Position numbers and translations under genes: made by a program | Part shown: piece by piece, positions 18,451 to 28,095 of the stretch | Layout of the letters: each line of letters starts with the position of its first letter | How positions within the stretch are numbered: position 1 is the first letter of the stretch | Notes under the pieces: generated by a model | Database searches by the model: none | The model's input: only the letters and a program-made list of their open reading frames with translations | Told to the model about the DNA's origin: nothing | IMG/VR virus record: IMGVR_UViG_3300024346_010786 | Location: 1-28,467 of that record | Length of the DNA stretch: 28,467 bases | Source of the DNA: a virus | Strand: one strand, 5' to 3'

Positions 18451-18855
18451 ATGGCATACGGAGATAAAGTAATAGACCACTTCAATAATCCACGAAACGT
18501 AGGAACTTTGGATAAAAGTAAATCCAATGTAGGTACGGGTTTAGTGGGAGCACCAGAATGTGGTGATGTAATGAGATTACAAATAGAAGTTAATGATAAT
18601 ATCATAACTGATGCAAAATTCAAAACCTTTGGATGTGGTTCGGCAATCGCAGCTAGTTCTTTAGCAACTGAATGGTTGAAAGGAATGTCAATAGATGATG
18701 CAATCAAATTGGATAATATGGAATTGGTAGAGGAACTATCCCTACCACCAGTTAAGATACATTGTTCAGTATTAGCAGAAGATGCTATTAAAGAAGCAAT
18801 AAAAGATTATAGACAAAAGCAAGGATTACAGGAATTAATCCTTGAAGGAATCTAA
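18451..18855 (+). CDS. iscU: Fe-S cluster assembly scaffold IscU
   Basis: A 134-residue IscU of full length (bacterial IscU is about 128). It follows E. coli IscU along its whole length: VIDHxxNPRNVG near the start, the three cluster cysteines Cys37 (with Asp39, ECGD), Cys62 (FGCGSA) and Cys105 (with His104, IHCS), and the LPPVK sequence at 98-102 that is the recognition site for the chaperone HscA. IscU receives sulfur from IscS and iron, builds a [2Fe-2S] cluster and passes it on. IscS, HscA and HscB are not in the window, so host partners would be needed; the retained LPPVK implies that the host chaperone can be used. It leads the cassette with ferredoxin and IscA and has its own promoter. 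Confidence 0.95.
   Translation: MAYGDKVIDHFNNPRNVGTLDKSKSNVGTGLVGAPECGDVMRLQIEVNDNIITDAKFKTFGCGSAIAASSLATEWLKGMSIDDAIKLDNMELVEELSLPPVKIHCSVLAEDAIKEAIKDYRQKQGLQELILEGI
18821..18843 (+). other. Inverted repeat at the 3' end of iscU
   Basis: AAGGATTA at 18821-18828 and TAATCCTT at 18836-18843 form a perfect 8-base-pair stem with a 7-base loop, 12 bases before the end of iscU. No T-run follows, so it is not a terminator. It might tune translation or mRNA processing between iscU and the ferredoxin. Confidence 0.35.
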
Positions 18856-18874
18856 AAATAAAAAAATATAAATT

Positions 18875-19183
18875 ATGAGTTTTATCATTGGTAAGGCTTG
18901 TGTTGATTGTATGGATACCGCTTGTGCAAGTGCATGTCCAGTTGATTGTATTCACGGACCTATCGATATGGAAGGTTCGGGTGGTGAAATTGAAAGAGAT
19001 GGTAGAGCAGCATTTCCCGGTGGGCAAATGTATATCAATCCTGATACTTGTATAAATTGTGGAGCATGTGTTCCAGAATGTCCTGTTTCTGCTATCTATG
19101 AAGATGAGGATATTGCAATTGGAGCAGGTGATGAAGTATCAGTACATAAAAACTATGAATTCTTTGGTTTAAAATATGCATAA
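18875..19183 (+). CDS. Dicluster ferredoxin (FdxA-like), first copy
   Basis: A 102-residue ferredoxin with two cluster sites. The first has Cys9, Cys12, Cys17 and Cys21 before Pro (CxxCx4CxxxCP) plus Cys25, the same spacing as in the 7Fe ferredoxin of Azotobacter; the second has Cys59, Cys62, Cys65 and Cys69 before Pro (CxxCxxCxxxCP). A 33-residue stretch separates them. It is therefore a [4Fe-4S]/[3Fe-4S] or 2[4Fe-4S] electron carrier, unlike the [2Fe-2S] ferredoxin of the E. coli isc operon. Its place between iscU and iscA suggests that it supplies electrons for cluster assembly, or is itself a client. Its stop and the iscA ATG overlap (TAATG). A paralogue lies at 25521. Confidence 0.9.
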   Translation: MSFIIGKACVDCMDTACASACPVDCIHGPIDMEGSGGEIERDGRAAFPGGQMYINPDTCINCGACVPECPVSAIYEDEDIAIGAGDEVSVHKNYEFFGLKYA

Positions 19184-19506
19184 TGGTAACAGTATCAGAA
19201 ACAGCAGCAAAAAAATTAACATCACTTATTGAAGAAAGTGGGTTTAAAACTCCATTTGTCAGAGTATCCGTTAAGGGTGGTGGGTGTAGTGGTTTATCAT
19301 ATGACCTTTCATTTGATACCGAACAACAACCAGCAGATACTCTTGCAGAACATAATGGAGTAAAAATTTTAGTAGATAATAAATCGTTACTATACTTATT
19401 CGGCACTGAATTAGAATTTTCAGATGGATTAAATGGTAAAGGTTTTCAATTTATCAATCCCAACGCTAGCCGAACTTGCGGATGTGGGGAATCATTTGCT
19501 GTATGA
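19183..19506 (+). CDS. iscA: A-type Fe-S carrier IscA (HesB family)
   Basis: A 107-residue A-type carrier with the three family cysteines, Cys35 (GGGCSGLSY), Cys99 and Cys101 (CGCGESF), and the same length as E. coli IscA. These proteins accept clusters or iron and help make [4Fe-4S] clusters for target enzymes. HesB-like genes are known from marine phages, but here the carrier lies in a cassette with IscU and a ferredoxin. The stop overlaps the start of gmhA by four bases (ATGA), tying Fe-S assembly to sugar synthesis in one transcript. Whether the carrier is IscA, ErpA or SufA type cannot be settled from sequence; its position favours IscA. Confidence 0.93.
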   Translation: MVTVSETAAKKLTSLIEESGFKTPFVRVSVKGGGCSGLSYDLSFDTEQQPADTLAEHNGVKILVDNKSLLYLFGTELEFSDGLNGKGFQFINPNASRTCGCGESFAV

Positions 19507-21387: not shown

Positions 21388-23018
<1,631 letters not shown>

Positions 23019-23019
<1 letters not shown>

Positions 23020-25156: not shown

Positions 25157-25524
25157 TAACAAAACCAAAAAAAGTAGAAAAAAAATGGGGGTATGAATTG
25201 TGGATTCACAACGACCCACAATATTGCGGAAAATTATTAGTTTTTCCAGAATCAGGAAATTATTTTTCCATGCATTACCATATGATTAAAAACGAAACTT
25301 GGTATGTCCAAAGTGGAAGCTTTGAATTTCATTATATTGATACTGAACATGCAAAGCGTGTTAGAAATATAATTAAAACAGGTGATGTTGTTTATATCCA
25401 AAAAGGATTACCACATCAATTAGTTGCAATGGAAGATAATTCAGTAGTATTTGAAGTATCTACTGAACATTTTGATAATGATTCGTATAGAATATATAGA
25501 GAATCTCATTTTGATTTAAAATGA
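25153..25524 (+). CDS. Cupin protein (mannose-6-phosphate isomerase type II-like)
   Basis: A 123-residue single-domain cupin. The opening VEKKWGYELWIHN is that of the isomerase domain of GDP-mannose pyrophosphorylase/phosphomannose isomerase proteins. The metal ligands His41, His43 (HYHMIKNE), Glu48 and His88 (PHQL) are all present, with GDVVYIQKGLPHQL as the second cupin motif. It may isomerise or bind a sugar phosphate feeding the nucleotidyltransferase that it overlaps (ATGA); small cupins of this kind recur in heptose and capsule clusters. The ferredoxin follows with another ATGA overlap. The substrate is not known. Confidence 0.8.
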   Translation: MITKPKKVEKKWGYELWIHNDPQYCGKLLVFPESGNYFSMHYHMIKNETWYVQSGSFEFHYIDTEHAKRVRNIIKTGDVVYIQKGLPHQLVAMEDNSVVFEVSTEHFDNDSYRIYRESHFDLK

Positions 25525-25838
25525 GTTTTATAATTGGTAAAAGTTGCGATGGATGTATAGATACAAGTTGTGTAAATGTATGCCCAGTTGATTGCATAAA
25601 TGGACCAATTATCATAGATGGTAGGGGTAAAGAAGTATTTGCTATGACCGATGAGGAAAAAATCGGTAAACAAATGTATATTAATCCTGATGTTTGTATA
25701 AATTGTGGAGCATGCATTCCTGAATGTCCTGTTGATGCAATTTATAGAGATGAAACAGAAGCTATTTATTTTAATGATGAAGAGTCCATTCAGAAAAATT
25801 ATAAATTCTATGGCCAAACATTTTCTAAAAATTTTTAA
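25521..25838 (+). CDS. Dicluster ferredoxin (FdxA-like), second copy
   Basis: A 105-residue ferredoxin whose nine cysteines fall at exactly the same positions as in the copy at 18875: 9, 12, 17, 21 and 25, then 59, 62, 65 and 69. The first 29 residues are nearly the same in both (SFIIGK, CPVDCI, GP). The linker between clusters and the C-terminal tail differ, so the copies have diverged, perhaps to serve different partners. It is the last gene of the 23080 operon, coupled to the cupin. No oxidoreductase partner lies adjacent. Which copy serves Fe-S assembly and which serves another enzyme cannot be told; the first is next to iscU. Confidence 0.9.
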   Translation: MSFIIGKSCDGCIDTSCVNVCPVDCINGPIIIDGRGKEVFAMTDEEKIGKQMYINPDVCINCGACIPECPVDAIYRDETEAIYFNDEESIQKNYKFYGQTFSKNF

Positions 25839-26290: not shown

Positions 26291-27304
26291 ATGATAAAAT
26301 TAAAATCATTATTAAAAGAAGCAGAGGAAGTTGTAAAAAACAAAAAGACTGGTAATGTTTATGTGGTTCAAAGTTTTGACCCAGCTAAACATGATAAACC
26401 ATCTCCCGCTGATATCCAAAAAGCTAAACAAGCTAATGGAGGACAACTTCCTAAAGGAGAACCCCAACCAAAACAGGTTCCACAAAATACTGCCCCTCAA
26501 CCCCAAAAAGGACAAAAATTAGGTAGCAATGATTTTAAATCTTCTGCCGAAACTCCCAACGATAGTGGGATGCCAATGTTGAAGGATTTAATGCCTAACG
26601 CAACATTTGATAGAAAACCACTATCAGCAGTAACTCCAATAGAAAGACAACAAATTTCTACTGTTATTGATAAATTAGCAGAATTAGGTAATCAGGCAAA
26701 AAAGAATGGTGAAAAAGCACCTAACTTTAATTTATGCCAGGTTTCAATTCCAGGTACTAACTTATATTGTGATGGTAACAAAGGTATTGAAAGGGGGGAT
26801 ATGCCACAATTCAAAGGAACACCTCAACCAGGTTCACCTGCTGACAAACTTCCAAAGGATGAAAGTGGAGAAGCTGATACCGAAGAATTTTTCAAAGAAA
26901 TGTTGAATAAGCAAGGTATCAAAGTTTCAGAACCAACAGCAGTTCCACCAGACCGCTTAAAAGCAACACAAAGTGAGCTTGTAGGGGTTAAAGTTGCAGG
27001 AATGAGTAAAGTATTAGATGACCCAAATCACCCGGCATACGGAAAGATTACCGCACCTATTTATGTATCCAATGATGGGTACGTTTTAGATGGACATCAC
27101 CGTTGGGCAGCAGTTGTTGCACATAACGCAGCAAATCCAAAAAATCAAATTCCAATGAACGTTAGGGTTATTGATGAACCAATCGAACCATTGGTAAAAC
27201 GTTCAAACGCATTCGCAGAAAAAATGGGTATTAGAGCTAAGAAAGCAGATACAGGCGCAGATGGAGGACCTTCTCCAATAGCATCTCCCGAAAAAAAAAA
27301 GTAG
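26291..27304 (+). CDS. Phage protein with capsid-targeting-like leader and ParB-like (DGHHRWAA) domain
   Basis: A 337-residue protein. The N-terminus MIKLKSLLKEAEEV resembles the short leader (MKxxxxFLxEA) of T4-type internal head proteins, cleaved by the prohead protease. A long Pro/Gln/Lys-rich linker follows (about residues 45-105), then a segment with a Cys pair (NLCQVSIPGTNLYC, about residues 147-160), and a ParB-like domain with YVLDGHHRWAAV (about residues 259-270), the DGHHR motif of ParB/sulfiredoxin-fold domains, some of which bind DNA, hydrolyse nucleotides or bind substrates. The end runs into a 10-A tract (27291-27300) with the slippery A AAA AAG and a TAG stop; a -1 shift would join it to the next gene. 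Function unknown; packaging in the head is inferred. Confidence 0.7.
   Translation: MIKLKSLLKEAEEVVKNKKTGNVYVVQSFDPAKHDKPSPADIQKAKQANGGQLPKGEPQPKQVPQNTAPQPQKGQKLGSNDFKSSAETPNDSGMPMLKDLMPNATFDRKPLSAVTPIERQQISTVIDKLAELGNQAKKNGEKAPNFNLCQVSIPGTNLYCDGNKGIERGDMPQFKGTPQPGSPADKLPKDESGEADTEEFFKEMLNKQGIKVSEPTAVPPDRLKATQSELVGVKVAGMSKVLDDPNHPAYGKITAPIYVSNDGYVLDGHHRWAAVVAHNAANPKNQIPMNVRVIDEPIEPLVKRSNAFAEKMGIRAKKADTGADGGPSPIASPEKKK
27291..27304 (+). other. Candidate -1 frameshift site (A AAA AAG before TAG)
   Basis: In the frame of the upstream gene the last codons are GAA AAA AAA AAG TAG, so the heptamer A AAA AAG sits in the right phase for -1 slippage, as in dnaX, and the stop follows at once. In the -1 frame, reading continues GTA GAA GTG into the downstream gene. 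Ten consecutive A bases also favour transcriptional slippage. Sequencing error in the homopolymer cannot be excluded. Confidence 0.5.
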
Positions 27305-27306
27305 AA

Positions 27307-28095
27307 GTGGCAAGTATTAAAGGAAAAACATCTGGTAAAAAAATACAAACAACTGAATTACCGGGTGGAGGACAAGTATTTGGTACAATTCATAGAAACA
27401 CTAAAATGGTTGATGATATAATTGACCATATAAAAACTACAATACCACAAGAAAAGTGGAAAGATATTGTTTTTGTTGGTGAAGGTGGTTCAACTGGTAA
27501 TAATGGAGAAATTGTATTTCATGATGAAATGAAATATGCAGCACCAAAGTTTAAAGAATTGGGCGCGAGTATTGATACATGGGATGGTGATGAATTAGAT
27601 GTTCATAATGACCAATCCAAATTATATAAAAGGCAGATGGAAAAAACTGGTCTTAACCAATCACAGGTTAATGCTGGTAACTGGGCTAGTATGATTGGAC
27701 AAGGGGAGGGTACTGATACTATGAGTCCAAATGATTATTTGGATAATCTAGGTAAAGAATTTTTACAACAATCAGCTAAAGAAGCAGGATTTCAACCAAT
27801 AGAAAATTGGAATGAACCAACTGATAAAGATATAGATACATTATATAGATTATCATTCCCAGAAGATTATGGTGATAAGGAAACAAAGATAAATGATATT
27901 CAAGTTGCTTTTAATGAAATTAGAGATGAGAATATCATAGATAAAAATAAAGAATTAACTGCACAGGGTAAAATACCTATTATAGTTGCAGGAGAAAGTC
28001 ATGTTGAACTTGTTAAAAATATGATAAGTAAGACATCAAATATATCAGAATTTTCATTAAAATATATTCTCAAATCAATAAATAAAACATATTAA
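27307..28095 (+). CDS. TraB/GumN-like protein, possibly the -1 frame continuation of the previous gene
   Basis: A 262-residue ORF from GTG at 27307, three bases after the previous stop; there is no ATG nearby. Its central and end motifs recall the TraB/PrgY/GumN (Tiki) and ChaN-like superfamily: FVGEGGS near residue 57, IRDENIIDKNKEL (about 208-220) in the place of the family's RDxxM, and PIIVAGESHVELV (about 227-239) in the place of GxGHxxGL. Such proteins are metal-dependent hydrolases or binders, often of unknown role. The weak start and the open -1 frame suggest it may be made as a fusion with the ParB-like-domain protein. Family assignment is tentative. Confidence 0.55.
   Translation: MASIKGKTSGKKIQTTELPGGGQVFGTIHRNTKMVDDIIDHIKTTIPQEKWKDIVFVGEGGSTGNNGEIVFHDEMKYAAPKFKELGASIDTWDGDELDVHNDQSKLYKRQMEKTGLNQSQVNAGNWASMIGQGEGTDTMSPNDYLDNLGKEFLQQSAKEAGFQPIENWNEPTDKDIDTLYRLSFPEDYGDKETKINDIQVAFNEIRDENIIDKNKELTAQGKIPIIVAGESHVELVKNMISKTSNISEFSLKYILKSINKTY

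Follow-up and report, generated by a model that had tools for sequence, protein, structure and literature searches.

Familiar cases of frameshifting include phage tail chaperones, coat proteins and dnaX. Ig-like domains are added to the coat and tail proteins of T3, A2 and Listeria phages either by a frameshift or in frame, and the dnaX gamma/tau gene occurs in both arrangements, with the slip leading to the short form or to the long form, including versions in which the site is followed at once by a stop (PMC5009743). Many heptamers give shifts above background in E. coli with no stimulator present, and A AAA AAG is among the most shift-prone motifs when stimulators are supplied (PMC4066793). 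Proteins packaged into the T4 head carry their own signals: the ten N-terminal residues of IPIII are enough for packaging, residues 4 and 7 being important for targeting and 8 and 10 for processing, and the gp21 protease cleaves after L/I-x-E (PMC9026906). Once delivered, T4 internal proteins act on host defences or cell physiology (PMC12373910). In the openly licensed literature that we searched, no frameshift extension of a head-packed, injected protein was found.

We analysed a viral record from IMG/VR of 28,467 bases (the window) in which a sequence-only reading had proposed a -1 frameshift between two ORFs. ORF1, encoding P1, ends with GAA AAA AAA AAG TAG, made up of a G at 27290, ten A's, a G at 27301 and the TAG, and this phasing places A AAA AAG in the -1 slip phase as the earlier reading had it. 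The downstream frame (ORF2, encoding P2) was said to be open across the site with only a weak GTG start, and this was confirmed: the open stretch of the -1 frame reaches from 27241 to its stop at 28095, and the GTG at 27307 is the sole start codon before codon 35. The predicted fusion of about 600 residues comes to 337 + 264 = 601. Apart from the A10 tract, no A or T run in the window reaches nine bases, and four are eight bases long. Outside the window the 18-mer CCNGAAAAAAAAAAGTAG was detected in just six viral contigs, each time at a -1 junction between long ORFs, so the A10 joint is more than chance. From the sequence, production of P1 and of a P1-P2 fusion by slippage is by far the best reading, and it is very probable that 27291-27304 is a programmed slip site yielding two products, whether the slip is made by the ribosome or by the polymerase. 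Most ribosomes translating ORF1 would halt at the TAG and release the 337-aa ParB-like protein, while a fraction would slip back one base on A AAA AAG, read on as GTA GAA... and produce the fusion of about 601 aa carrying P2. The fusion would be the minority product, and the efficiency of the slip would set the ratio of the two forms. The features of the locus are collected in Table 1.

Table 1. Features of the ORF1-ORF2 locus, in window coordinates.
Feature	Position	Strand	Evidence
ORF1 (P1), 337 aa, zero-frame product ending ...SPEKKK-stop	26291..27304	+	Relatives; purifying selection
Probable capsid-targeting leader MIKLKSLLKE (L4, L7, L8-x-E10), predicted gp21-type prohead protease cut after E10	26291..26320	+	Same pattern in relatives and stand-alone P2; T4 rule (PMC9026906); gp21 and gp23 in 8/8 large relatives
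ParB/sulfiredoxin-like fold, residues ~206-320, with invariant DGHHRWAA	26906..27250	+	Fold comparison; PHROG ParB-like, E 0.009
Overlap, -1 frame already open ahead of the zero-frame stop	27241..27304	+	Sequence
A10 tract	27291..27300	+	Kept in L019, L022, L029, L072, L244 and in the in-frame L010, L212, L241
Slippery heptamer A AAA AAG, zero-frame phase	27295..27301	+	Sequence; phase preference class-wide
Zero-frame stop TAG immediately 3' of the slip site (TAA in L244)	27302..27304	+	Sequence
ORF2 (P2), 264 codons in the -1 frame, read from GTA up to the stop once the -1 slip has occurred	27301..28095	+	AlphaFold2 mean pLDDT 91; dN/dS ~0.13-0.20 vs L019, L029, L030
GTG, the one codon nearby at which a separate P2 could start; not conserved, with ACT in L019	27307..27309	+	Sequence comparison
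First G-x-x-H motif of P2 (GTIH)	27382..27393	+	Invariant G28, H31
C-terminal AGESH motif of P2	27988..28002	+	Invariant A230, G231, H234

To compare the joint across related phages, a check that the sequence-only reading had called for, relatives were collected from viral contigs by protein search and by alignment search, two of each. These searches returned more than 150 loci, many of them the same contigs repeated, and the counts given here are of contigs rather than evolutionary events, with only obvious repeats removed. The close, small version of P1 was found in four states at its 3' end. P1 occurred without P2 in 24 contigs with a readable end, and A10 was present in none of them. In the second state P2 lies in the -1 frame after GAA AAA AAA AAG and an immediate stop; this arrangement is found in the window, L019, L022, L029 and L072, all with TAG, and in L244 with TAA. 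The P1 proteins of these five relatives are 57-64% identical to that of the window, at a dS of 1 to 2. In the third state P1 and P2 form one frame and GAA AAA AAA AAG is kept exactly while the bases 3' of the tract differ (L010, L212, L241/L242); a further in-frame P1-P2 gene, in L003, has A9 in a different phase. The fourth state is represented by L030, whose P1 is 87% identical to that of the window and ends with TAA without a tract, followed by P2 in the -1 frame with a GTG 5 nt past the stop. In more distant relatives a single ORF of about 1150-1950 aa contains both P1 and P2, and their order varies. Such ORFs (L027-L060, L174-L240) carry further sequence beside the two domains, and one type begins with what by eye looks like a nucleotidyltransferase domain. 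Other P1 contexts were also seen: in L526-L529, L531, L538 and L540 P1 is extended in frame by a different C-terminal stretch of 188 aa, behind which another ORF lies in the -1 frame, and in L006, L008, L014, L015 and L024 a recurring neighbour of about 257 aa (MYPVRGYYKPE... or similar) abuts the P1 stop.

A -1 slip in the in-frame fusions L010, L212 and L241, as read from the sequence, reads one to three codons and meets a stop within 2-4 codons. Slippage there gives the short form, so either arrangement of the one gene can yield both a short and a long form. The tract also appears to mark a point of exchange. In a codon-aligned comparison of L029 and L244 the P1 proteins are 98% identical but the P2 proteins only 46%, with the same tract at the joint, so the P2 module has been exchanged at or near the tract.

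The in-frame relatives bear on two further explanations. The earlier reading had raised the possibility that the ten A's were misread, in which case the true tract would be A11 or A8 and ORF1-ORF2 a single uninterrupted gene, and had taken an uninterrupted frame in related phages as the sign of such an error. Homopolymers are error-prone and uninterrupted fusions do exist in some relatives, as just described; these fusions, however, keep A10 and differ in the bases after the tract rather than in run length, and six contigs from different records share both the tract length and the immediate stop. Misreading is the least likely of the alternatives that we weighed, with a close to negligible probability. 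Replication slippage could instead make the tract a contingency locus that toggles the fusion on and off between generations. A10 tracts mutate readily, but A11 or A8 in the same context was seen in no relative, and the fused relatives differ 3' of an unchanged A10, making this explanation very improbable as well.

Sequence divergence was then used to evaluate the joint and the two genes. Both genes are under purifying selection: P1 gave a dN of 0.095 and a dS of 0.94 in the comparison of the window with L030, and P2 a dN of 0.17 and a dS of 1.33 in that with L019. Between several of these phages synonymous changes have nearly reached saturation, yet the four codons of the joint (GAA AAA AAA AAG) are invariant, which points to selection on the site. 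Given the residues EKKK and the codon use of the genes themselves, the chance of this exact codon string is about 0.10 per independent lineage (p). L022, L029 and L244 share a recent P1 ancestor, which reduces the eight lineages to an effective five or so. In L019 and L072 a TGA just 5' of the tract closes the -1 frame and a TAG just 3' of it closes the zero frame, which leaves 13 nt across the A tract as the sole point of entry to the -1 frame.

L019 is also informative about whether P2 is made as a separate protein by termination and reinitiation at GTG 27307. The first ATG, GTG or TTG of the -1 frame in L019 lies 35 codons downstream, past the first conserved GxxH motif, and these 35 start-less codons differ from those of the window by 14 synonymous and 7 nonsynonymous codon changes. 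A stretch of 35 conserved codons without a start implies that this part of P2 is translated from ORF1 or from a non-standard start. The GTG lies 2 nt past the stop in the window and in L029 and 5 nt past it in the tract-less L030, and the A-rich region 5' of GTG 27307 could act as a start region of the Bacteroidota type. Stand-alone P2 genes also exist. Yet the GTG is missing from L019, L022, L072 and L244, all of which have A10, and most stand-alone P2 proteins have a capsid-type leader of their own, which a P2 started at the GTG would not have. Separate synthesis of P2 is thus quite unlikely for the window, although the arrangement of L030, without a tract and with a GTG 5 nt after the stop, makes a separate P2 possible in some phages. 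Taken together, the same joint in diverged relatives, the lack of a downstream start in L019 and the retention of A10 in the in-frame fusions bear out the earlier proposal of a -1 shift fusing the two proteins.

To tell ribosomal from polymerase slippage, each codon phase was scanned in viral contigs for A10 with an in-frame TAG behind it, and repeats were removed. In the A AAA AAG phase 86 sites remained after removing repeats, and 49 G-A10-G-TAG sites end an ORF of at least 100 codons. Thirty sites in this phase join an ORF of at least 100 codons to a -1 frame with at least 100 open codons, compared to 2 for the +1 frame. Among the matches listed for the two other A10 phases, at least 120 each before repeats were removed, -1 joints made up 7/97 and 0/95; the patterns for these phases were shorter and looser and drew more background, so these fractions overstate the contrast somewhat. 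Members sharing the 18-mer or the A10 joint include portal-MuF pairs, a tail-chaperone-like pair (L077) and a cellular dnaX gene (L168), in which the joint reads CCN GAA AAA AAA AAG TAG as it does in the phage. Some of the cellular 18-mer matches (L166, L171, L172) may be chance occurrences.

These distributions bear on whether it is the RNA polymerase rather than the ribosome that slips. Polymerase slippage on A10 would produce mRNAs with 11 (or 8) A's that are read normally as the fusion, while mRNAs with 9 A's would end a few codons on, giving the same two products by a different mechanism. Runs of at least nine A's slip in many bacteria, with Thermus dnaX and IS elements as examples (PMC1088944, PMC5009743). 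Each of the six -1 joints has exactly ten A's, more than A AAA AAG requires, and the A10 of a portal-MuF pair in phage Peternella_1 sits in a different phase. However, polymerase slippage does not depend on codon phase, yet joints of A10 and a stop that have a long alternative frame favour the A AAA AAG phase among the matches listed, and within that phase the -1 frame outnumbers the +1 frame 30 to 2. Homologous IS elements also vary between 8 and 10 A's (PMC1088944), whereas the joints described here are invariant. Based on the class-wide bias in phase and direction, ribosomal slippage is favoured as considerably the more probable mechanism, short of proof, and polymerase slippage is rather unlikely while still carrying more weight than the other alternatives. 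In the window and its relatives the search for stimulators found neither a Shine-Dalgarno sequence suitably spaced upstream of the site nor a downstream RNA structure that was conserved. Folding the downstream RNA, as the earlier reading had suggested, revealed a low-energy fold in the 90 nt after the site in the window (z -3.6) that was not shared by the relatives (z -0.7 to 1.2).

About 15 viral gene families, and some cellular genes, have G-A10-G-TAG at a -1 joint (L061-L172). In eight contigs (L062, L064, L065, L070, L084, L120, L131, L160) a portal gene ends with GAA AAA AAA AAG TAG and a MuF head protein (PF04233) lies in the -1 frame. The portals belong to two unrelated families, Portal_Mu PF06074 (L065) and Phage_portal PF04860 (L084), with the others clustering with L065, and the joints look like frameshift fusions. 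In the cultured Winogradskyella phage Peternella_1 (L501, MT732475, ~2517-2549) the portal and head morphogenesis genes are annotated separately, and an A10 in phase 3 lets the -1 frame run from portal into MuF. A phage ORF that ends in A10-G and an immediate stop can be found by searching and points strongly to a -1 fusion, also for portal-MuF pairs that are now annotated as separate genes.

P1 begins with MIKLKSLLKE, with LxE at residues 8-10, and similar leaders were found in most relatives. The stand-alone P2 proteins begin with MIKLMDILLE and MIKLIDILKE. As judged from its sequence, the P1 leader fits the T4 capsid-targeting rule and cleavage is predicted. ORF1 is the only window ORF with the head-leader pattern, which was chosen after seeing ORF1. 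A gp21-type protease and a gp23-type capsid protein were identified in all eight large relatives (199-274 kb), the window itself being a 28-kb fragment, and the head-targeting-like leader of the earlier reading is upheld by these observations. Among the nearest cultured relatives of the capsid protein are T4-like Flavobacterium phages and one phage listed under Microcystis. Elsewhere in the window (18451-19506, 21403-23019 and 25521-25838) there are phage genes that include a GroEL-type chaperonin and, recognized only by eye, IscU-, IscA- and two ferredoxin-like proteins. The leader would direct both the short and the extended form into the prohead, where a gp21-type protease would cut after LKE. 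Both forms would then probably be packaged and injected with the DNA, and once injected would probably act on host defences or cell physiology as the T4 internal proteins do (PMC12373910). Two otherwise different proteins of 623-694 aa from the same phages (L502:976-3060, minus strand; L503:1041-2912, minus strand) share the stretch that follows the P1 leader, EDIVKNKKSGNIYxV...HDxPTxAEI, which is perhaps a common packaging module.

The ParB-like domain claimed for P1 was recovered by modelling. Residues 206-320 model as a ParB/sulfiredoxin fold, and the DGHHRWAA motif within it is invariant. Nearly all of the 17 fold matches listed are of the ParB, Noc, KorB, Srx or SerK type, with modest Z scores of 4.5-5.9, and the top Foldseek match is sulfiredoxin. 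Sequence matches are weak (PHROG ParB-like, E 0.009), and by weak profile matches the domain, with its DGHHR motif, is nearer to SerK/DUF1015. Among cultured phages P1 has distant matches only, at about 29% identity to F116-like phages. The modelled fold supports membership of P1 in the ParB/sulfiredoxin superfamily.

P2 also models well (AlphaFold2 mean pLDDT 91), and its GTIH, GEGG and AGESH motifs hold invariant positions. The TraB/GumN-like label that had been given to P2 was not established, the profile and fold evidence being weak. The TraB/PrgY/GumN profile (PF01963) did not match P2 of the window and reached E 0.052 in one of 15 relatives, and hhalign of P2 against true TraB proteins gave a probability of 7.5% over 55 columns around the C-terminal RD/RN...GxxH. 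No strong fold match was found in the PDB; the best match was 8b6h_DQ, a Tetrahymena respiratory-chain subunit (Z 8.7, rmsd 8.7, 184 aligned), and EreC gave a Z of 4.9. No TraB-named chain appeared among the Foldseek matches listed for P2, which does not count as evidence against TraB. Overall, Pfam, PHROGs, PDB sequence search, hhalign and Foldseek gave no firm support for a TraB identity. No match to P2 was found in cultured phages. Loosely inferred, P2 is possibly a hydrolase-like domain with GxxH motifs.

If the slip operates as proposed, its efficiency would set the dose of the extra domain delivered at infection. A broader interpretation can be drawn from L029 and L244, where near-identical P1 genes carry diverged P2 modules behind the same tract. 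T4-like phages may use the G-A10-G-stop cassette repeatedly as a joint for exchanging the effector-like C-terminal domains of an injected head protein, while making both a bare and an extended form in every case, whichever frame is the default. We put this forward tentatively, as an idea more likely to be wrong than right.

This kind of system is already known from dnaX, lambda G-GT and, for frameshift-added domains on phage proteins, the Ig-like extensions; the P1-P2 gene pair appears to be new. No T4 internal protein is, to our knowledge, extended by a frameshift. The packaging side of the locus resembles T4 IPI-III and Alt (PMC9026906) in the ten-residue leader with L/I-x-E at residues 8-10, and relatives of the window have gp21 and gp23. 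Phage polyvalent proteins, including DdrB-like ParB (PMC5512222), similarly place a ParB fold in late multidomain proteins thought to be injected, and in relatives of the window the ORFs of about 1150-1950 aa combine P1 with P2, each coming first in some of them; here, in contrast, the ParB-like domain has the DGHHR motif with its weak profile matches nearer to SerK/DUF1015, and the main text of PMC5512222 mentions neither TraB nor frameshifting. As in lambda-type tail assembly chaperone G/G-T (PMC5009743), a late phage gene would use a -1 slip to make a minor fusion product, but the gene is a different one and its role here would be dosage of a packaged protein rather than tail length. With dnaX the locus shares the heptamer A AAA AAG, a single gene that yields two forms, one short and one long, and the existence of both arrangements, represented here by L241, L212 and L010 against the window. 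E. coli dnaX has known stimulators. It differs from the phage joint in being a cellular gene, and no stimulators are conserved in the phage joint. Like the Ig-like extensions, P2 is an optional C-terminal domain that is added by frameshift or in frame depending on the phage and spread by recombination. Unlike them, it is a different domain on a probable injected internal protein rather than a shell or tail protein, and the slip tract persists in three of the in-frame versions.
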